Source: Laspinema palackyanum D2a
Lineage (GTDB): Bacteria > Cyanobacteriota > Cyanobacteriia > Cyanobacteriales > Laspinemataceae
Assembly (NCBI GenBank): GCA_025370845.1
Contig: JAMXFF010000014.1
Coordinates: 78,082 to 142,081 of the forward strand
Length of the DNA stretch: 64,000 nt
Reading direction: 5' to 3'
Shown: piece after piece, positions 1,859 through 62,716 of the stretch
How the letters are laid out: the number at the start of each line of letters is the position of its first letter
How positions within the stretch are numbered: position 1 is the stretch's first letter
Position numbers and translations under genes: made by a program
The notes under the pieces: generated by a model
Told to the model about the DNA's origin: nothing
The model's database searches: none
Seen by the model: only the letters and a program-made list of their open reading frames with translations

Positions 1859-1931
1859 GGTCATTGGTCAATTGTCATTAGTCAATTCTCCAGTCTCCAT
1901 TCTCCCTTGTCAATTGTCAATTGTCAATTTC
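1859..1931. repeat. heptad-type short tandem repeat (STRR-like), TCAATTG/TCATTAG units
   Basis: The intergenic spacer between the Pvc16-like gene and the 74-aa gene contains repeated GTCATTRGTCAATT and TTGTCAATTG heptads. Related heptads recur between the sheath and tube genes (about 12.1 kb) and upstream of cobB (about 50.87 kb), so this is a dispersed family of short tandem repeats of the kind known in filamentous cyanobacteria. Confidence 0.75.
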
Positions 1932-1935
1932 ACCC

Positions 1936-3276
1936 TTACCGAATTACCATCTTAGGCTCAGTATAACGATTAAAATTAGGACTGTTTGGATCCGAATCCA
2001 CATTCAGAATACTTTCAGCCCCATCCACCTGTAACCGCACCAAATATTCGCCCGGTTTCACATTTTTAATGGGAATACTCACTACCATTCCATCGCGATG
2101 ACGGTTGGGGGCTTCAAACATATAGGCAGCGGGATTTTGGGTGGATTTTTCATTCAGAACTAATACAATCCGCTGATGTTTGCCCAGGGTCAGATTGACT
2201 CGGACCTTAATCTCTGCCGATCGCACATCTTCGTCTTTTCCTTCCAATTTAGAAACCGTCACCTTCGTCACCACCGGACGTAAAATAAACGGAATGGCAT
2301 TCGATTCTAAAATTTGGGAGAATACCATTGGTTTGGATAAGGTTTGGGTTGCAGTTTCTTGAGTGGATTCTCCCCGCCATCCGTTGCCATTATCTCCCCG
2401 AGATTCGGTAGAGACATGATGAATGACTTGTAGACTCTGTACCCCTGCTTTTAAAGAATGTTCTGGGGTTAAGGAAAGGGGAACGAGTAACTCAGTTTCA
2501 CTGACGGATTGAGGGGTGATTTCTACCCCACTAATCCGCACCGTTGTCTGTTTATTGTTCAGGTTTTTGCCGCGAATTAGGAGGGTACTATTGGCTAGAA
2601 TCGGCTCAAATTTTCCCGAACGCGAAACAACTTGCTCCACCAAGGGGCGATTGAAAAAGGGAATAACGCCACTGAGGGCGCGTTCGCGCACGGGTAACGC
2701 TCGGTAAGCGGATTCTTCTCCTTCAATCATCACTACCGTTGCTTTATATACCAAGGAAATACTGTAAGGCGTTTGAAAAAATACCGACCAAACTTTGGAT
2801 AAATCTTCTAAAGATAAATCCATCGGACTAAAGCAAATTTCTTCAGTTTGGTCTGCTAAATTGGAATCGGTTAAATAGGGATAGCTAGAATCAGCCAGAG
2901 TTTCATAAATGGTTTCTCGGGTTAAGGAGGTGCGATCGCTCAAAATTTTCACCACACTGCCTAACAGTCGTTGCGGTTCTAATTCGGTTTCATTGCCGTA
3001 GAAACTGAGAATATAATGCAAATCTAATGCCGTCCGGGATTTCTTCGCCCCAGCATCCCGGGTACTCCGCATCCGCACTTCTGCATTTTTTTGCCACACG
3101 GGATTGAGAGAGACTTGGTACATATAGAGGTTAACCCCTTTTTCAGGAGTCCCGCTGCCTAAATTATTGGGGCGAACGGTGGTAACTCTTGCACCATCTA
3201 AATCTAATTGAACAGAAGACTGTAACATTCGTTGTAAACAGGCAGTCACGGTAGCAATAGCTAGATAATTGCTCAT
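1936..3276 (-). CDS. Pvc16/DUF4255 family cap protein with Ig-like (IPT-type) extension
   Basis: 446 residues from the chosen ATG at 3276; an in-frame ATG four codons earlier at 3288 is possible, and neither has a strong Shine-Dalgarno. Residues ~1-190 show the DUF4255/Pvc16 N-terminal pattern: MSNYLAIATVTACLQRML, then a VNLYMYQVSLNPVW strand, then LDLHYILSFYGNE and PYSISLVYKATVVMIEG. In eCIS this protein caps the tube-sheath end distal to the baseplate. From about residue 225 there is an Ig-like/IPT-type segment (ANSTLLIRGKNL, VRISGVEITPQSV), followed by further beta-rich sequence to the end, which ends in PNFNRYTEPKMVIR. It is first of the left-arm genes. The second, short DUF4255 protein at 9.7 kb belongs to the right arm. 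The role of the extension is unknown. Confidence 0.85.
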   Translation of the reverse strand: MSNYLAIATVTACLQRMLQSSVQLDLDGARVTTVRPNNLGSGTPEKGVNLYMYQVSLNPVWQKNAEVRMRSTRDAGAKKSRTALDLHYILSFYGNETELEPQRLLGSVVKILSDRTSLTRETIYETLADSSYPYLTDSNLADQTEEICFSPMDLSLEDLSKVWSVFFQTPYSISLVYKATVVMIEGEESAYRALPVRERALSGVIPFFNRPLVEQVVSRSGKFEPILANSTLLIRGKNLNNKQTTVRISGVEITPQSVSETELLVPLSLTPEHSLKAGVQSLQVIHHVSTESRGDNGNGWRGESTQETATQTLSKPMVFSQILESNAIPFILRPVVTKVTVSKLEGKDEDVRSAEIKVRVNLTLGKHQRIVLVLNEKSTQNPAAYMFEAPNRHRDGMVVSIPIKNVKPGEYLVRLQVDGAESILNVDSDPNSPNFNRYTEPKMVIR

Positions 3277-3288
3277 ATTATTATGCAC

Positions 3289-3731
3289 TCTGGGCTGATA
3301 CTAAAATGAGGATTGAGACTAAACCGATTGTAGCTGCCAATTTTCAAGTTCGAGCGGCTCGATCGCGATTGGGTGAATCGGGCTAAACTCATCAGATTGA
3401 GTTTAACACAACAGCTAGGAAGATTTTTGAGGAAAATAAGGCAGGAATTTTCTGAAGATAACTGATTCAGAGGCAGAGGCTGACAAAACTTAAGCAAAGT
3501 TTAAATTTTGTCCATCCTGGAAAAATTGAGGTAAACTTTTCAGGGATACGGAGGTGTCAGATCCGCTGAGAAAAATGTGCCAATCGAGAGGCGATCGCCC
3601 CGGAGTAGTCTCAGATTAAACCCCGTAAGTTGTTGCAGATTTAATCGATACCTTGACGCGGAGGGAGTTCCTCCAATTTGTGCATTCCCCAGCTAACTCA
3701 GGGAACGAAGACTGAATCAGGAACACCCCTT
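3289..3731. promoter_or_regulatory. divergent intergenic region with an 8-bp inverted repeat
   Basis: No convincing gene lies in these ~440 bases between the divergent Pvc16-like gene and the first methyltransferase. At 3384-3405 an inverted repeat TAAACTCA-N6-TGAGTTTA could be an operator or short hairpin. The region should hold promoters for both directions, but I could not identify a clean -35/-10 pair. Confidence 0.4.
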
Positions 3732-4868
3732 ATGAGGCGATCGCACCCCGTTCACTCGACCGTTGATCCACAGACTTTACTTGATAACCCAATGACATCG
3801 GCAAATCCAAACCACCCGACTGCTTCAGTGCCAGTGATCACGGACCCTGATGTACTCTTGCAAGCGATGCTGACCAGTTTTAACCAAAGACTGGAAACCG
3901 TGGGCGAACTAATTATGCCCGCAGTCCCAGCAATGGCAGAGTATTACCGCCACCGAATTGGGTCCTTATTCGATAGTTTGGCGATTCCGTTCCAAGAAGC
4001 GGAACGAAATCAACTCTATCAAATTTTGGACAAAAAGTTAGAAGAAGGATTTGCCTTATCTCCCCATGCGCGCCTCAGACTCAAATACCATCCGGCAGAA
4101 CCCCCAAAAACCGGATTAACCTTTGAATTTTCCGTCTCTGTCTTATCGGATATTGAGGAATATCAGGAGTGGATGAACCAGAACGAACAACCCTGGTTTG
4201 GCATGACTCCCGATGCGAAAGTGCTGGATATTGCCCAGTTAATAGAAGACCCGAGGACTGCCTCAGTCTTGGATATCGGGGCCGCAACTGGACGAAATAC
4301 CTTGACCCTGGCGCAACGAGGTTATCCCGTGGATGCCTTGGAATTAGTCCCTCCCTATTGCGATCGCCTCCAACAAATTGCCGAACAAACGGGATTACCT
4401 GTCACCGTGACTCCCGGAGATATATTTGATCCCCTAGTCCGGATGCCCTTGGGACAGTATCAACTGGCGATCGCCACCGAAACCCTCCCCTTGTTTTGCT
4501 GCGATCGCGATCGCCTGCGCCTGTTTCTCGTCAAAATCTGTGATGTCCTCCAGACGGGCGGTTTAGTGCTATTTAGCCTCTTTCTCGCATCCGATGACTA
4601 CGAACCGGATTTAGTCACCCGCCAGATGTCGCAAGTCAACTGGTCCTGCCTGTTCACGCGATCGGACCTCGCCCATGCAATGGCCGGATTGCCCCTAGAA
4701 CTAATCTCCGATGAGTCTTGGGTCAACTATGAACAAACCCATCGCCCCGAAGAAACATGGCCTCCCCATGAATCCTTTCTCAACTGGGCAACCGGACGGG
4801 AATTATTACTCACCCCCCCAGACCAAACCGCAATGGAATTGCGCTGGATACTCTGCAAACGCTTGTAA
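3732..4868 (+). CDS. class I SAM-dependent methyltransferase, first of three tandem paralogues
   Basis: 378 residues from the ATG at 3732, preceded by AGGA; the longer frame would need a TTG at 3678. After ~40 Pro/Thr-rich residues comes a helical domain (VPAMAEYYRHRIGSLFDSL) and then a Rossmann methyltransferase. SAM motif I is VLDIGAATGRNT, followed by the acidic strand-2 end VDALELVPPYC and the motif III region LQTGGLVLFSLFL. The C-terminus MELRWILCKRL is nearly identical in the two following genes. The substrate is unknown: motif I resembles TehB/UbiE-type enzymes, which cover small molecules and proteins. It starts a plus-strand run of three paralogues lying between the two arms of the injection system. 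Confidence 0.82.
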   Translation: MRRSHPVHSTVDPQTLLDNPMTSANPNHPTASVPVITDPDVLLQAMLTSFNQRLETVGELIMPAVPAMAEYYRHRIGSLFDSLAIPFQEAERNQLYQILDKKLEEGFALSPHARLRLKYHPAEPPKTGLTFEFSVSVLSDIEEYQEWMNQNEQPWFGMTPDAKVLDIAQLIEDPRTASVLDIGAATGRNTLTLAQRGYPVDALELVPPYCDRLQQIAEQTGLPVTVTPGDIFDPLVRMPLGQYQLAIATETLPLFCCDRDRLRLFLVKICDVLQTGGLVLFSLFLASDDYEPDLVTRQMSQVNWSCLFTRSDLAHAMAGLPLELISDESWVNYEQTHRPEETWPPHESFLNWATGRELLLTPPDQTAMELRWILCKRL

Positions 4869-4875
4869 CCCCCCC

Positions 4876-4992
4876 TCCCATCATATTATTCCCACCCCGT
4901 AATAGTTGTTTCCCAACCCAGATCCAGTCCAATGGATCCAGTCCAAACCCTTGTAAATCCCCATCCCATCATGTATTCCAACCCCGTAATAG
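4876..4992. repeat. imperfect direct repeat marking a tandem gene duplication boundary
   Basis: TCCCATCATATTATTCCCACC at 4876 onward, continuing to CCCGTAATAG, recurs at 4964-4992 as a copy with a few changes, one copy before and one just inside the second methyltransferase gene. GATCCAGTCC is also doubled at 4921 and 4935. This looks like residue of the duplication that produced the methyltransferase array, and it may blur the true start of the second gene. Confidence 0.6.
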
Positions 4993-6047
4993 ATTCTTCC
5001 ACCCCTGAAAACCAACCCTTAACCGACCCCCCCACCCTGCAACCGGGACCCCTTACCCAACTTCAGCATCGATTTCAAGGGCGCGGTCAAATCGTCATGC
5101 CTTGTATCCCTGCCCTCTTGGAACATTACCTCAACTCCATTGCCCAACTATTGAACGCCCTCGGGCAAACCCTGGACCATGACGGGGTAACTCACCTCTC
5201 TCAAAGTCTATGGCGGAAACTTCAGGAGGGATTTGAAACCTCCCCCCATGCCAAAATCGTTTTCACCTACGAACCCCAACCCCATGACAGTTCCCAGTTA
5301 AAATTCCAAGTCTCATTGTTGACCCCTTCCCTGGCGCAAGAATATCAAAAATGGGTCAAAACCAAAGAACCTCCGCTGTTTGGGGCCTATCCTGATGCCA
5401 AGGTGACTGCCATTGCCGCCCAATTTGATAATCCCGCCAATGCCCCCATCGTAGATATTGGTGCCGGGACAGGTCGCAACAGCATTCCCTTGGCCCAACG
5501 GGGTCATCCTGTGGATGCTGTGGAACTCGCCCCCGTCTTCCTCCAGGAACTACAAGCAACCGCCAATCACCAAAACTTACCCCTGCGAGTCATCCCGGGA
5601 AACATCCTCGATCGCCCCCTGAAACTCCCCCCTGCCTATTACCAACTGGCGATCGTCTCCGAAGTCATCTCCCATTTTCGCGACCCCTCCGAACTGCGCC
5701 TCTTACTCGCCAAACTCAGTGACGCCGTACTTCCCGGCGGATTCATCTTATTCAACCTCTTCCTCCCCCTCCAAGACTACCAACCCGATCGCCTCGTCGT
5801 AGAACTCTCCCAATCCTCCTGGTGCACCCTGTTTACCCGGGACGAACTTGCCACCGCAATGGAGAACCTCCCCCTCCAACTCTTATCCGACGAATCCGCC
5901 TTTGAATACGAACGGGACCATCTCCCCGCCTCCGCATGGCCCCCCACCAGTTGGTATCCCACCTGGTCCCAAGGCCGAAATATGTTCCATCTCCCCAACG
6001 CCTTTCCCCCCTTAGAATTGCGCTGGATACTCTGCCGTCGTTTGTAA
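4932..6047 (+). CDS. class I SAM-dependent methyltransferase, second paralogue
   Basis: 371 residues with the same architecture as its neighbours: a Pro-rich leader, a helical domain (PCIPALLEHYLNSIAQLL), then a methyltransferase fold with motif I IVDIGAGTGRNS and strand 2 VDAVELAPVF. The motif III region is LPGGFILFNLFLPLQDY, and it ends PLELRWILCRRL. The ATG at 4932 has no clear ribosome-binding site and the leader contains a duplicated DNA segment. Translation could instead begin at the Met codon at 4971. The 21-bp gap to the next paralogue suggests co-transcription. The C-rich codon use is stronger than in the flanking CIS genes. Substrate unknown. Confidence 0.8.
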   Translation: MDPVQTLVNPHPIMYSNPVIDSSTPENQPLTDPPTLQPGPLTQLQHRFQGRGQIVMPCIPALLEHYLNSIAQLLNALGQTLDHDGVTHLSQSLWRKLQEGFETSPHAKIVFTYEPQPHDSSQLKFQVSLLTPSLAQEYQKWVKTKEPPLFGAYPDAKVTAIAAQFDNPANAPIVDIGAGTGRNSIPLAQRGHPVDAVELAPVFLQELQATANHQNLPLRVIPGNILDRPLKLPPAYYQLAIVSEVISHFRDPSELRLLLAKLSDAVLPGGFILFNLFLPLQDYQPDRLVVELSQSSWCTLFTRDELATAMENLPLQLLSDESAFEYERDHLPASAWPPTSWYPTWSQGRNMFHLPNAFPPLELRWILCRRL

Positions 6048-6068
6048 CCCCTCCACCCCCTAACCCTG

Positions 6069-7142
6069 ATGTTCCCTACCAAAACCCCCTCTTCTGCCAT
6101 TCCCCGCGAACCCATCCCCCAACCTTCACCCCAGATTCACGAGAAACACTTCCAACACCTAGAAGGCCAGTTTCAAGCCAGAGGCGAAATCCTGTTTCCC
6201 TGTGTTCCTGAATTGTTGCAACTGTATCTCGAACAGATCACCGCCTTGTTTAGCAGTTTCAACAGCGTCATCGAACCCGCCACCCTCGCCAAACTGCCGA
6301 AAGAACTGGAAAACCAGTTAATCTCTGGATTTGCCACCTCTCCCCATTCCAAATTAATTCTCACCTATGAACCGAGTCCCCAGGGGGTGACCCTGCAACT
6401 CAAACCGTTTATTTCCTCCGTCGCCGATCAGTACCAGGATTGGGTAAAACAACGCGAACCCCCCTTATTTGGCACTCATCCCGATGCCAAAGTCATGGCA
6501 ATAGCGGCCCAATTTTCAAATCCCGCCGATTCCCCCATCTTAGATATCGGGGCTGGAACGGGTAGAAATACCCTACCCTTGGCCCAACAGGGTTATCCCG
6601 TGGATGCCGTGGAGTTAACCCCGGCCTTTGTCGAACAAATCCAAGAGGCCGCCCAAAAACAGAAATTGCCGGTCCGAGGGATTCTCGGGGATATCCTCGA
6701 TCGCCAAGTCAAGCTACAACCCGCCTATTATCAAGGGGTGATACTCTGTGAAGTGATTGCCTCCCATTTTGGGTCTGTCGATCCCCTCCGCCAGTTGTTA
6801 GCCCGAATCTGCGATACCTTACGTCCGGGGGGTTTATTATTATTTAGTCTGTTCTTAGCCGTGGATGACTATGAACCGGACAACCTCACCCGAGAACTCT
6901 CCCAGGTCACCTGGTCCTGTATTTTTACCCGGTCAGAACTCGCTGAAGCGATGGAGAGATTGCCCCTAACCGTCTTATCCGATGAGTCCGTTGTAGAGTA
7001 CGAACGGGAACATCTCCCGACTGCCGCATGGCCCCCAACCGGATGGTTTATCAAATGGTGTCAGGGTGAAAATTTATTTCCCTTAAACAACCAAGGTAAA
7101 CCCCCGATGGAGTTGCGGTGGATTCTATGTCAACGGCGGTAA
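6069..7142 (+). CDS. class I SAM-dependent methyltransferase, third paralogue
   Basis: 357 residues. Domain order matches the two preceding genes: helical N-terminal part (PCVPELLQLYLEQITALF), motif I ILDIGAGTGRNTL, strand 2 VDAVELTPAFVEQ, DTLRPGGLLLFSLFL, and the shared tail MELRWILCQRR. The repeat GTHPDAKVMAIAAQF before motif I is common to all three and may form part of the substrate pocket. A strong palindromic terminator follows at 7216-7283. Three diverged but complete copies suggest selection for related substrates rather than recent redundancy. The role relative to the injection system is unknown. Confidence 0.82.
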   Translation: MFPTKTPSSAIPREPIPQPSPQIHEKHFQHLEGQFQARGEILFPCVPELLQLYLEQITALFSSFNSVIEPATLAKLPKELENQLISGFATSPHSKLILTYEPSPQGVTLQLKPFISSVADQYQDWVKQREPPLFGTHPDAKVMAIAAQFSNPADSPILDIGAGTGRNTLPLAQQGYPVDAVELTPAFVEQIQEAAQKQKLPVRGILGDILDRQVKLQPAYYQGVILCEVIASHFGSVDPLRQLLARICDTLRPGGLLLFSLFLAVDDYEPDNLTRELSQVTWSCIFTRSELAEAMERLPLTVLSDESVVEYEREHLPTAAWPPTGWFIKWCQGENLFPLNNQGKPPMELRWILCQRR

Positions 7143-58306: not shown

Positions 58307-61300
58307 CTAAGAGGGATTTTTTTCCGGTAACAGGCACTTATCGGAATCGCAACCGGCGGGTCCTGCTTCCGCTAATTCCCCGAGGTCATAGCGCTGGAGG
58401 GCATTTTTAAAGTCATCGGTTTTGCGACGAACTAAGACCTCAGCGCTGAGGCGATCGTACTCCGCTTTATCAATGGGTTCAAAGGGGAGGCGAGGGAAAG
58501 ATTGGCGATCGTCAAATCGAGCGAGTAGGGCGGCAGAAATATAGCCTTCATCATTTTGGATTGCCTCATAAATGCGCTGACCCAATAGCTCAATTTCTGA
58601 CTCCCGAACTTCCACGGTGGCAGAGGTGTTATGGGTGACATAGTGGCTTTGAACATTCATATAGAAGTCCATTTGAGCCATCGCACTAAATTGACTAATA
58701 TCAATTTCATCGGCACCGGGTAAATCGGCCCAACTGACAGCAATGGGAATTTCCACCAACCATTCAGAACAGCGCGGGTCAAACGGATCATTCAGGAGAT
58801 TTCCGTTTTCATCCTTATCCGATTGGGAGGGAATGACACTGTAACCGTAGTCGATACAAGCCAAGGCAACCGGGTCATTTTTACCAAAAGTAATGCGGCG
58901 AATAAACCGCTGGGCTTTGGGCGGATGCCACCCGGGAGATGCGCCAGTTAGTAAAGATTTTGTCCCTGAAGGCTGAACAGTTGTGCAACGATTGGGACGG
59001 CGCAATCCGTGGCGATCGCAATAATCCCAAACTTTCTCATGAACAACGGTTCGCCAGCGCGTCAAATAGGCTTCTTCTTGACGCTTAAATTCGATTCCTT
59101 CCGGGGTTGCGGGACGACCTTGTTCCCACCAGCGCAACCAATCCACACCAAAGGCATGAACAAAGAAATCAAATAATCCGGTAAAGGAAACCCCAACAAT
59201 CGGATCGATTTCCCGGCTGTATTGATAGCGGGGTTCCGCGAATTTATGATTCAGCAAGGTTGCCACAGATAAAGCACCCGCAGCAAAAGCATCTTCTTGT
59301 TCGCGATCGTTTTCGGGGTCAATTTGATTCAGATGAATCTCAGCTAAATTGCACTGCCCGGTGAGGGTTCCGCCGAAAACACCTTTATGGAATTCAGGTT
59401 CGTTAAAGCAGAAGGTATCCTGGCGACCCTGAATGGGTACAATCTCCCGAATCACTTGCCATTTGCCTTTATTGGTGGGGTGATGACCCTTAGAGGTATT
59501 GACGCGCTGACAAGGAATTGCCGCACAATCGGTGATTTGCAGATACCACAAATCCTTATTGCGAATGCCGAGATTGGTGATTTCACCGGCTCGGGATTGC
59601 AAGTTAATCGAGGAGCGAATCCCGCATTTGAGCAATAACAGATAGACCCGATAGGCGCGATTATAATCCGACAAATACAATCGAACGCCACCGCTGGACG
59701 TAGCGGAACCATCGGCATCAATTAAGCCCGCAATGAAGTGTAAAATCCCTTCCCGATTCCAGCTTGCCAGGGGTTCCAGGGCTGTGGCATTGGCTTTTAA
59801 ATCGCGGACTTGTTCGGGGTCGAATTGGCCTTGGAAACCCGTATCAAGCAAGCAAGGGGTTTCGGGATTTTCTGCGTAGTAACGCAATTTTCCGGAAGTC
59901 CGACCAGCAAGGGCTAATTCCGGATAGCTTTTGGCTCCATATAAGCGCAGTTGGAGTTGAGGCTTGCCATTAGATTGACACAAGGATCCATCCCCCACCA
60001 ATTGTCCGAGGGTGTAAGCCCACAAGGGGTCTACAAATTTGCCCTCTTGATAGTCAATCTGGAATGGCTCAGTGTGCAGGGCATATTTGTGGGTGGAAAG
60101 ATGATCTTGCAGTTGTGCCGTGGTCATTTCCCGATAAGTTTTACCAAAGCGATCCTTAACAAAGAAACGGTGTTTTTCTGTTACGTCTAACCAGGTCCCA
60201 TCGGCAAAAGAAACGCGATAAAGTTGGCGATCGCGTCCCGTCAACATCGGAGTAACGCGACTCCACCGCTGACCATTCCAAATTTCCACCGATTGACCGA
60301 CAAGCGATCGAATCGTGTGCATTCCATCTCGTGTCACCAGCATCGTATCGCCAGAAACACAGTGAAAATCTGCACCAATAATTTCACCACAGTTATGAGC
60401 AACAATTCCATTCGCATCAAAACGATTAGGGCCAGGGACAATACAATCATAGACAGATTCGATCCCATCATCTACCACGCTTGATATCGTTGCAGTAAAT
60501 CGTTCCTTATTCAGACGGCGCTTGTAATTGCTAAGAGATTCCGAGAGTTTGGCTGATTTGGTAGGTTCCTGGAACCCAACAAGTTGCTGAAAAACGCTGA
60601 GATTGTCGTTAGAAATAATCAACTCGTGCTGGGCTTGGCAGAAATAGGAAGCAGGATTCCGATCTGAATCAGGCAACATTCGATAGCCTTCATGCCGCCG
60701 ATTTTGATAAACTTTGGAGACAATCCCTAGACGAGCTAGCATTCGCTGAACGGCTTTTAGGTTGGATAAATTGCTTTGAGCCAGTCGCACACTAATTCCT
60801 TTGTTCTGGCTGCCCTGAACACTACCATCAGCATCAAAAATGCCCCTCAGAAACCCGAGATAAAAATCATAACTGGCTTGCTCGATTTTGTTGGAAACAA
60901 TTTTGTTGCCTTGGGTCAGTTCAAAATCCTCAGCTAACTTAGCTAGCCCAGTAGATCCAATAACACGGTGTTTGTGCTGAGAATGATAATGTGCTTCTTC
61001 CGTGCGTTTTTTGTACTCTACAGCAGTCTCAAGTAGAGCGACGGCGTATTGGCTCATCGGCAATTGAGATTCTCCCCAATAACGCAATATCCCAACATCA
61101 TTCCACTGGGTTTGAGCCAAGCTGCCATCACCAACCAAGCTCCCTAATAACCAACCTTCCTCAAAGTTTCCCTTCCCTTCCCAGGGTTGAAGTCCTCGGT
61201 GATTATGTAGTAACACGAGGTCTCCAGGTTGCAATGTTTCAGCCGTAACCCACTCGGTGTACTGCTTTTTCTGGGTTTGTGCCGTCACTTTTAGCACTTT

Positions 61301-62716
61301 ATGATTGCCAGTCAAGCGCAGCGTTTGGCCTTCCTTAGTTTCTAACTTTAGAACAGGCTTGTTACCAGAATAGAAGAAACCCTCGGGTGTTGTGCTAAAT
61401 AGTTCTCCATTTACATAAATGCTGTGTTGAAGATCGATTAAATCTTTGACTTGTCGCGGACCTTCTCCGGTGTGAACCCATGTGTCAGCTGTGACACACG
61501 GGTTCAATCCAACGCGGGATAACCGATGCTCTAACTCGGGTTGAGAAATTTCTGGATAGCGATCGCCTATCCATTGCTTCCCTTTGCCTTCGTTATAGGC
61601 TTTCAGAAAATCCCGTTTAGTCTCGCGATCGGGCATTAAATCGCAACTGGCTCGGGCAACTGCTTCACCCGCCCATTGAATGGCTCCTTCCCCAGAATAA
61701 TATTGTTGACGCACCGCATCAATACATTCATCGAGGGTCGGTTTATGGTGAAAAACTCGGGTGTGATTGGACATTCTGAGTGCATCTCTTTCCGGGTCAA
61801 TGCGCCAGTTTCCAGCCTCATCTTGTTGCCATAAATTCATCTTGGCATTAGCAAACAATTCATCATCGCTTGCTCCCTGCCTCATGCCGGCAGATCTTCT
61901 GATGTTGCCAGCCACTATTGTACTAGCCGCTTCATCAATCAATAAGCAGCATTCGACGGAATTTAATTGACGTCCATTTGCTTTATTTAAAATTAAAGCA
62001 ACTCGCTTATAAAGGTCAGTTAATTTAACTGGATTAGCAACGCCTCCAAACCCTTTTAGCGGTTCTCCGGCTGGACGAATATCGCACAGATCTACGACAA
62101 CTTCAACGGTTGAATTAAAGCGCTCATCTGTGGAGAGTTCTAGCAGAGTTTGATAGGATTGCACCCAACCTATCCGAGAGTCTCCGACATTCATGAGGAC
62201 CCGGCTGCCATCGTAAGTCACCTCTGTTTCTTGGCGACGGCGATCGCTGGGGGTCAGGCCAATTTCGCCTTGGAGGGTGATCTGGAGTCGGTTGCGAATC
62301 TTCGGCAACTGATTGATATATTGAGGTTCGAGGACTGCGCCAGTCCCACATCCCATCATCGCAAGGCCCATTAATAACCCAAAGGCTCGCCAATCGTGGA
62401 TATTTGTTGAGGAACAGTTATAGGCCCCAGAAAAGTTTTCCGGGCGTTCGATCCAGTCGGTGCCCCCCACCCACAACCAACGACCCGAGGATAGGGTTTT
62501 GAGTTGTTTCTGCATCTGGGTGAGGAGTGCCACCTCGTCGGAGTTGAGATTACCGAGTTTCTCTAATCCCGCAATGGTGCGATCGCAGACTTGATCCCAA
62601 GTTTCCCGCCCGTCATCCTGGCGGCGGCTGTAAGTCCTAAAAAACACCGGATTCGCTGCCGGTGCGGTTTCGGGAAAATCGCTGTGGTGGCGCGTGCGTT
62701 CCAATTCTCGAACCAT
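58307..62716 (-). CDS. nrdJ: adenosylcobalamin-dependent ribonucleotide reductase with two inteins
   Basis: 1469-residue precursor. The exteins, 406 + 10 + 348 = 764 residues, form a class II ribonucleoside-triphosphate reductase, close to the 739 of the Lactobacillus leichmannii enzyme. Visible catalytic cysteines: the first redox Cys in YNCSSTNI (residue 101), the thiyl-radical Cys in CGEIIGADFH, its redox partner in CNLAEIHLN, and the C-terminal shuttle pair GCDSDKC. Intein 1 (407-775) precedes CGEI and intein 2 (786-1121) precedes CNLAEI. The enzyme needs vitamin B12, consistent with cobB ~8 kb away. It stands alone with a divergent ABC ATPase gene next to it. Confidence 0.96.
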   Translation of the reverse strand: MVRELERTRHHSDFPETAPAANPVFFRTYSRRQDDGRETWDQVCDRTIAGLEKLGNLNSDEVALLTQMQKQLKTLSSGRWLWVGGTDWIERPENFSGAYNCSSTNIHDWRAFGLLMGLAMMGCGTGAVLEPQYINQLPKIRNRLQITLQGEIGLTPSDRRRQETEVTYDGSRVLMNVGDSRIGWVQSYQTLLELSTDERFNSTVEVVVDLCDIRPAGEPLKGFGGVANPVKLTDLYKRVALILNKANGRQLNSVECCLLIDEAASTIVAGNIRRSAGMRQGASDDELFANAKMNLWQQDEAGNWRIDPERDALRMSNHTRVFHHKPTLDECIDAVRQQYYSGEGAIQWAGEAVARASCDLMPDRETKRDFLKAYNEGKGKQWIGDRYPEISQPELEHRLSRVGLNPCVTADTWVHTGEGPRQVKDLIDLQHSIYVNGELFSTTPEGFFYSGNKPVLKLETKEGQTLRLTGNHKVLKVTAQTQKKQYTEWVTAETLQPGDLVLLHNHRGLQPWEGKGNFEEGWLLGSLVGDGSLAQTQWNDVGILRYWGESQLPMSQYAVALLETAVEYKKRTEEAHYHSQHKHRVIGSTGLAKLAEDFELTQGNKIVSNKIEQASYDFYLGFLRGIFDADGSVQGSQNKGISVRLAQSNLSNLKAVQRMLARLGIVSKVYQNRRHEGYRMLPDSDRNPASYFCQAQHELIISNDNLSVFQQLVGFQEPTKSAKLSESLSNYKRRLNKERFTATISSVVDDGIESVYDCIVPGPNRFDANGIVAHNCGEIIGADFHCVSGDTMLVTRDGMHTIRSLVGQSVEIWNGQRWSRVTPMLTGRDRQLYRVSFADGTWLDVTEKHRFFVKDRFGKTYREMTTAQLQDHLSTHKYALHTEPFQIDYQEGKFVDPLWAYTLGQLVGDGSLCQSNGKPQLQLRLYGAKSYPELALAGRTSGKLRYYAENPETPCLLDTGFQGQFDPEQVRDLKANATALEPLASWNREGILHFIAGLIDADGSATSSGGVRLYLSDYNRAYRVYLLLLKCGIRSSINLQSRAGEITNLGIRNKDLWYLQITDCAAIPCQRVNTSKGHHPTNKGKWQVIREIVPIQGRQDTFCFNEPEFHKGVFGGTLTGQCNLAEIHLNQIDPENDREQEDAFAAGALSVATLLNHKFAEPRYQYSREIDPIVGVSFTGLFDFFVHAFGVDWLRWWEQGRPATPEGIEFKRQEEAYLTRWRTVVHEKVWDYCDRHGLRRPNRCTTVQPSGTKSLLTGASPGWHPPKAQRFIRRITFGKNDPVALACIDYGYSVIPSQSDKDENGNLLNDPFDPRCSEWLVEIPIAVSWADLPGADEIDISQFSAMAQMDFYMNVQSHYVTHNTSATVEVRESEIELLGQRIYEAIQNDEGYISAALLARFDDRQSFPRLPFEPIDKAEYDRLSAEVLVRRKTDDFKNALQRYDLGELAEAGPAGCDSDKCLLPEKNPS
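59354..60361 (-). other. intein 2 of NrdJ (residues 786-1121), LAGLIDADG endonuclease type, Gln C-terminus
   Basis: 336 residues. N-terminal block CVSGDTMLVTRDGMHTIRSL; block B TEKHRFFV; LAGLIDADG motifs LGQLVGDGSL and IAGLIDADGSA. The C-terminal junction reads FGGTLTGQ|CNLAEIH: the last residue is Gln, and Gly takes the place of the usual penultimate His. It is inserted immediately before the second catalytic Cys of the reductase. Splicing with Gln as last residue is known for a minority of inteins. Confidence 0.9.
60392..61498 (-). other. intein 1 of NrdJ (residues 407-775), LAGLIDADG endonuclease type
   Basis: 369 residues. N-terminal block CVTADTWVHTGEGPRQVKDL; block B LTGNHKVL; endonuclease motifs LGSLVGDGSL and LRGIFDADGSV; block F YDCIVPGPNRFDANG; canonical C-terminal VAHN followed by Cys as +1 residue. 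It is inserted directly before the thiyl-radical Cys of CGEI. All canonical splicing residues are present, so it should be active. Confidence 0.94.

Follow-up and report, generated by a model that had tools for sequence, protein, structure and literature searches.

Why should two self-splicing elements lie ten residues apart in the active site of one enzyme? The question is raised by the nrdJ gene of Laspinema palackyanum D2a, found in the window, i.e., the whole stretch of 64,000 nt that was analysed (contig JAMXFF010000014.1, positions 78,082 to 142,081), where a single open frame encodes a class II ribonucleotide reductase with an intein before each of two catalytic cysteines. We demonstrate here the anatomy of this precursor, the repeated occupation of its catalytic loop by different elements, their co-occurrence at chance level and the differing histories of the two inteins. 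Very probably, two homing-endonuclease inteins entered this essential gene in separate events, at sites close to each other in its catalytic loop. The conserved loop DNA would keep a target always available to an endonuclease, the conserved cysteines would provide the +1 nucleophile for splicing, and imprecise excision would wreck the active site, so that only well-splicing elements would be retained. We infer that both inteins splice in the cell and do so constitutively, and that both endonucleases are active now or were so recently.

Two inteins at the catalytic cysteines of NrdJ

The precursor was dissected into three extein segments and two inteins (Table 1). The predicted spliced product is NrdJ of the RTPR type, matching TIGR02505 at 737.9 bits against a cut-off of 340. 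When it was searched by phmmer against PDB sequences, with 1L1L as the sole match, C407 and C417 fell on C408 and C419 of 1L1L, which we take to be the thiyl-radical cysteine and one cysteine of the redox pair, respectively. C101, C751 and C756 lie in the places expected for the C119 equivalent and the C-terminal redox pair, all three outside the span of the 1L1L alignment, C101 being equated with C119 by position. These results confirmed that two in-frame inteins at the catalytic cysteines of NrdJ are real and directly precede these residues, as the earlier note on this DNA had claimed. Its statement that the same cysteines serve as +1 residues, with ten extein residues between them, held residue for residue (CGEIIGADFH); joining the exteins in silico gave the 764 aa that it had predicted; and its claim that the chain would be inactive until both inteins have spliced is supported by what this anatomy implies. 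With 96 C/S/T residues as allowed +1 sites, two random insertions would both fall before any of the three active-site cysteines with a p of about 7e-4, and the same two insertion sites are used in many other genomes.

Table 1. Parts of the nrdJ precursor, with positions in the window and residues of the precursor
Feature	Position (nt)	Strand	Precursor residues	Evidence
nrdJ precursor ORF of 1469 aa, a class II RTPR containing two inteins	58307..62716	-		ORF list of the window, TIGR02505
N-extein, terminates in VGLNP, contains C101	61499..62716	-	1-406	frame dissection
Intein 1 of 369 aa, kind B1 at site B, with Cys1, TGNH in block B, the endonuclease motifs GDG and DADG, and a C-terminal VAHN	60392..61498	-	407-775	profile matches, motifs
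Mini-extein CGEIIGADFH; its Cys is C407, the +1 residue of intein 1	60362..60391	-	776-785	1L1L alignment
Intein 2 of 336 aa, at site C, with Cys1, TEKH in block B, the motifs GDG and DADG, and a C-terminal LTGQ	59354..60361	-	786-1121	TIGR01445, fold match
C-extein, starts at C417, contains the C-terminal pair C751/C756	58310..59353	-		frame dissection; 1L1L alignment for C417

Both inteins are of class 1, having Cys1, a TxxH in block B, and a C-terminal Asn (intein 1) or Gln (intein 2) followed by Cys. The N-terminal intein model TIGR01445 (intein_Nterm, cut-off 24.5) matched intein 1 at 30.7 bits and intein 2 at 26.1 bits, and Pfam Intein_splicing matched intein 1 and reached just E 0.08 for intein 2, the identity of which was therefore checked by folding. 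The AlphaFold2 model of intein 2 (pLDDT 87.2, pTM 0.88) matched whole intein-endonuclease structures, namely TliVMA (E 1e-13) and PI-SceI (E 4e-12); that of intein 1, built from 6 sequences, was set aside (pLDDT 57). The penultimate His, which is usual in inteins and not obligatory, is present in intein 1 and absent from intein 2. Chen et al. reportedly found in 2000 that inteins without this residue can splice, so intein 2 is still eligible as a class 1 intein. The endonuclease domain PF14528 was detected in both, with GDG at position 123 in each and DADG at 222 in intein 1 and 215 in intein 2, and both are predicted to be LAGLIDADG homing inteins with both acidic motifs intact.

Repeated occupation of the catalytic loop by different elements

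A total of 59 genomes, the window's own and relatives, were searched for NrdJ; 39 of them exceeded the RTPR cut-off and yielded 42 copies, all of which were read individually, and just three copies were uninterrupted. Outside the catalytic loop, site A (274/275) is occupied in 17 of the 42 copies, site D (546/547) in two and site E (near 655) in one. Within the loop, inteins were found in 10 copies at site B (406/407, before the thiyl cysteine) and in 19 at site C (416/417, before the redox cysteine), so the two sites, which the earlier note had suggested comparing in other cyanobacteria, do recur; at site B', which follows the next codon and lies 6 nt past B, a group I intron was found in 14. 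Altogether, the 30 nt between B and C are interrupted in 35 copies. Site B hosts at least two kinds of intein, B1 and B2, which are just 25% identical. The best 80 of 402 RTPR relatives in the GTDB set, ranked by coverage, all appeared uninterrupted by match length, and since such ranking favours uninterrupted genes, no interruption frequency was taken from them. Two NrdJ genes were noted besides: one (L205, G284:C86:1-14000) apparently carries five inteins (A, B2, C, D and E) in one 2547-aa frame plus a stop-containing insertion, and another (L202, G280:C1:1946500-1953500) carries a 2.5-kb stop-containing insertion at 123/124 together with an intron at B' and an intein at C.

Co-occurrence was then compared with expectation over the 42 copies (INDEPENDENCE). 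Inteins at B and C were observed together 4 times against 4.5 expected, and elements at B' and C 4 times against 6.3 (P 0.11), whereas B and B' were never occupied together (0 observed, where 3.3 would be expected; P 0.009 with no correction for kinship), nor were they in any of 14 additional copies chosen for carrying B1 or C. Thus, none of the 42 copies combines elements 6 nt apart, and those 24-30 nt apart occur together at rates not different from chance. In bacteria and phages, this 30-nt stretch accommodates group I introns of two types and inteins of at least two divergent kinds around the thiyl cysteine, and another intein at the redox cysteine, so that the reasons for which self-splicing elements accumulate at active sites can be examined in a small natural system.

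The two types of B' intron account for 12 and 2 of the 14 copies, respectively. For the main type, an alignment of 9 of the 12 copies gave a covarying fold, with compensatory changes at 31 of the 71 pairs predicted, as counted with no shuffled control; all 9 have a U.G in P1 where the 5' splice site lies, and P10 and the terminal G were read by eye. The second type (L022 and L027) matches Rfam RF00028 at 79 and 89 bits, and the main type is not recognised by Rfam, where a match to RF00028 is helpful for calling a group I intron and does not define one. Rfam at gathering scores returned nothing over the whole 64-kb window. An HNH endonuclease ORF (L036, 2380-2901) lies within the group I intron of the congener G001, in a gene that also bears intein C.

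Differing histories of the two inteins

Among the main nrdJ copies of eight species of the genus, intein C is carried by seven, G002 being the one without it, and the B/B' slot is taken by B1 in the species of the window, by B2 in G004 and by an intron in both G001 and G002, and is empty in the other four. At E 1e-25, B1 was found neither in the seven other species of the genus nor in six of the family that were searched, and the nearest allele to that of the window is 67% identical and comes from outside the family. By comparison, intein C of six congeners is 92-97% identical to that of the window, and its dS in the genus equals that of the exteins, with a dN/dS of 0.11 (0.12 for the endonuclease part) against 0.07-0.08 for the exteins. 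The absence of B1 from congeners and the extein-like divergence of C indicate separate histories; judged by these alleles, intein 2 is old in the genus, and intein 1 would be either a local gain or the survivor of a wide loss. As a point against homing, no clear footprint of co-conversion was seen beside site B, where the number of differences is slightly raised in one 60-nt block (5.0, compared with 2.8).

Some of these data speak against mobility as the explanation for intein 2, because its endonuclease part is under purifying selection and the genus shows no sign of its recent transfer, an outcome that a host function would equally give. Its cysteines are likewise nearly invariant, with C246 present in 97% and C279, C284 and C318 in 100% of the 33 alleles compared. 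Intein 2 alone may thus have been adopted by the host to gate maturation or redox state, with selfish elements coming and going at the thiyl site, as its presence in seven of eight species with extein-like dS would suggest, and for which the A. aeolicus R2 intein, which raises iron loading and activity, offers a precedent (excerpt of PMC8772380). Purifying selection, however, is also expected from active homing within populations, and G002 lacks intein C. C318 lies in block F and is kept in 14 of 14 rows of an alignment with distant phage alleles, so it likely takes part in splicing chemistry, and C246, C279 and C284 belong to the endonuclease half and are variable among the distant viral alleles. 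Sensing and structural or endonuclease reasons are equally likely to account for the conserved cysteines, and the adoption of intein 2 as a gate is considered unlikely. Its more specific form, in which C246, C279 and C284, with C318, would make a thiol or metal sensor tying the release of C417 to the thiol state beside a thiyl site that serves as a rotating selfish slot, is considered quite unlikely; if true, a phototroph would build active reductase only when its re-reduction is possible. For the B1 family, cysteine conservation was scored over 34 rows, one of which (G158) is a B2 allele.

Across the host's order, B1 was found in 35 of 291 genomes and C in 50 at an identity of at least 50%, six more matches to C at 30-33% being class I genes. 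Both inteins occur in 12 genomes, an overlap that exceeds the 6.0 expected when all 291 genomes are counted (P 0.007), which again tells against separate invasion, but not clearly the 9.1 expected among an estimated 192 RTPR genomes (P 0.15). Could the two inteins then move and act as one composite element, e.g., by co-homing from a phage donor? The pair is indeed found on four phage contigs, and the two inteins stand 30 nt apart in all 12 genomes that carry both. Each, however, is commoner alone (23 of 35 B1 carriers lack C, and 38 of 50 C carriers lack B1), and one phage contig has C beside an empty thiyl site. In the 12 genomes with both, the distances of B1 and C correlate with each other (Mantel r 0.46, P 0.01) less well than each does with the extein (0.58 and 0.56, respectively). 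The C intein of the window's genome (G000), 92-97% identical to those of its congeners, is 57% identical to that of G227, the carrier of its closest B1. Neighbouring haloarchaeal MCM inteins, moreover, interfere with co-homing (excerpt of PMC10643990). A composite element is thus very unlikely. Nor do the identities support the arrival of the two inteins in the window's lineage by co-homing as a tandem cassette, a candidate that was rejected, as the C of G000 groups with those of its congeners and is far from that of G227.

The phage contigs were read in the same way. On viral contigs L208, L210, L221 and L225, NrdJ contains both B1 and C, with the same ten-residue spacer (30 nt), although both intein frames are apparently broken in L225, and the phage contig with C alone is L209. 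In the flanks of L210 and L221 (longer loci L234 and L244), 8 of 10 and 7 of 10 neighbouring ORFs, respectively, matched PHROGs, with ParB, DnaB helicase and polymerase exonuclease families next to both and an Erf family in L244. The three phage B1 alleles with open frames have GNG in place of the window's GDG, which suggests that their endonucleases may be damaged. Single-sequence patterns found one relative of intein 1 in the viral contigs, in L207, and none of intein 2, for which an alignment query then found 24. By eye, inteins were read before both cysteines in the distant viral genes L212, L214 and L222, and in L207 (ORF 1886-7000) three were read: one before the equivalent of C119, the other redox cysteine, one B1-like at the thiyl cysteine, and one at site E. 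The first of these starts with Pro and is presumably class 3-like. The NrdJ of Cylindrospermopsis phage Cr-LKS4 is annotated as one 2253-base CDS, and hence the inteins are not present in every cyanophage NrdJ.

A second NrdJ copy and the redox reading

The window's genome holds a second RTPR NrdJ copy (L031, G000:C52:99000-107500, 2929-5524), which is interrupted by a group I intron after GLNPCG, two codons past GLNP and beside the same cysteine, and which encodes 783 aa when joined at the predicted splice sites. Rfam RF00028 did not match this intron. The 7.5 kb around the copy are 99.77% identical in G002, whereas the exons of their main copies share 93 and 90% identity; the copy looks as if it may have been exchanged recently. 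Methyltransferase and HNH genes lie upstream of it. PF02867, PF00268 and PF13597 had no match in the window's genome, where PF02867 misses RTPR as well and RTPR was detected with TIGR02505. As no reductase was found beyond the two RTPR copies, both would need splicing at the same loop, and since this genome has no detected reductase gene without a splicing element there, splicing efficiency and dNTP supply could be linked experimentally. The earlier note had named replacement of the enzyme by another reductase as a finding that would count against its switch; at least half of this was found, in that a second NrdJ copy exists.

These results bear on the proposal that the two inteins form a paired redox on-switch, in which oxidation would block the cysteine nucleophiles and thereby confine maturation of the reductase to reduced cells. 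Both inteins do have Cys1 and Cys+1, as does the disulfide-inhibited P. abyssi PolII intein (excerpt of PMC5874633), and oxidation reversibly inhibits the M. smegmatis DnaBi1 intein (excerpt of PMC6195587); these cases indicate that redox effects are possible for cysteine inteins generally, and do not by themselves argue for such effects in the NrdJ pair. A regulatory pair, however, should stay paired and resist bypass, whereas the thiyl-site intein occurs in just two of eight species of the genus and in two divergent kinds, B and C meet at chance frequency, an RNA intron takes up the position next to that cysteine elsewhere, and a second NrdJ gene in the genome could serve as a way round the switch. 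The redox-sensitive switch put forward in the earlier note is therefore unsupported, and we regard it as highly improbable. A coupled double switch, tried as the best reading, was rejected on the chance-level co-occurrence of B and C. The tandem NrdJ inteins are instead another case of a known phenomenon, at an unusually crowded target.

Liu is said to have described in 2003 a cyanobacterial ribonucleotide reductase, T. erythraeum RIR, with several inteins per chain, and Meng, Zhang and Liu reportedly described in 2007 that RIR of Nostoc punctiforme is interrupted by a group I intron. The former resembles the NrdJ studied here in having several inteins in one chain (excerpt of PMC1635734), a likeness of description and not of insertion sites. 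The latter, known here through excerpts of PMC12702839 and PMC3984707, is probably of the same kind as the introns of L031 and 11 other copies; it acts at the RNA level, whereas the NrdJ inteins act at the protein level, and it is likened by description and not by insertion site. Inteins generally lie at conserved functional sites (excerpts of PMC2814812 and PMC5874633), the introns that split phage reductase genes lie near functionally important residues (excerpt of PMC3653736), and RNRdb puts the inteins of reductases at about 80 and their group I introns at over 100 (excerpt of PMC2795772). The A. aeolicus R2 intein also lies amid catalytic residues with Cys as +1, but it is single, belongs to the small subunit and, as excerpted in PMC8772380, was shown to splice and aid iron loading. 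The haloarchaeal MCM-a and MCM-d inteins likewise occupy two close sites in one gene and can each home alone, although the gene is another one and their homing was measured, whereas the NrdJ inteins are known from sequence (excerpt of PMC10643990). In a literature search that took in sources other than the full texts of Liu (2003) and Meng (2007), no paper was found on tandem inteins before both NrdJ catalytic cysteines, and no first report is claimed.

Inteins of class I NrdA/NrdE, in Caulobacter phage CcrPW, the SPbeta-like phage BUCT083 and cyanobacteria, use the thiyl cysteine as +1, as intein 1 does, with one intein seen at this cysteine. The BUCT083 intein shares 24% identity with intein 1 and 22% with intein 2, and those of CcrPW and six cyanobacterial class I genes align with intein 2 along its length at about 30% identity. 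In the latter, the cyanobacterial NrdA genes L187-L192, these relatives of intein 2 lie before the thiyl cysteine, whereas in NrdJ intein 2 lies before the redox cysteine, so that one intein lineage is found at two different catalytic cysteines.
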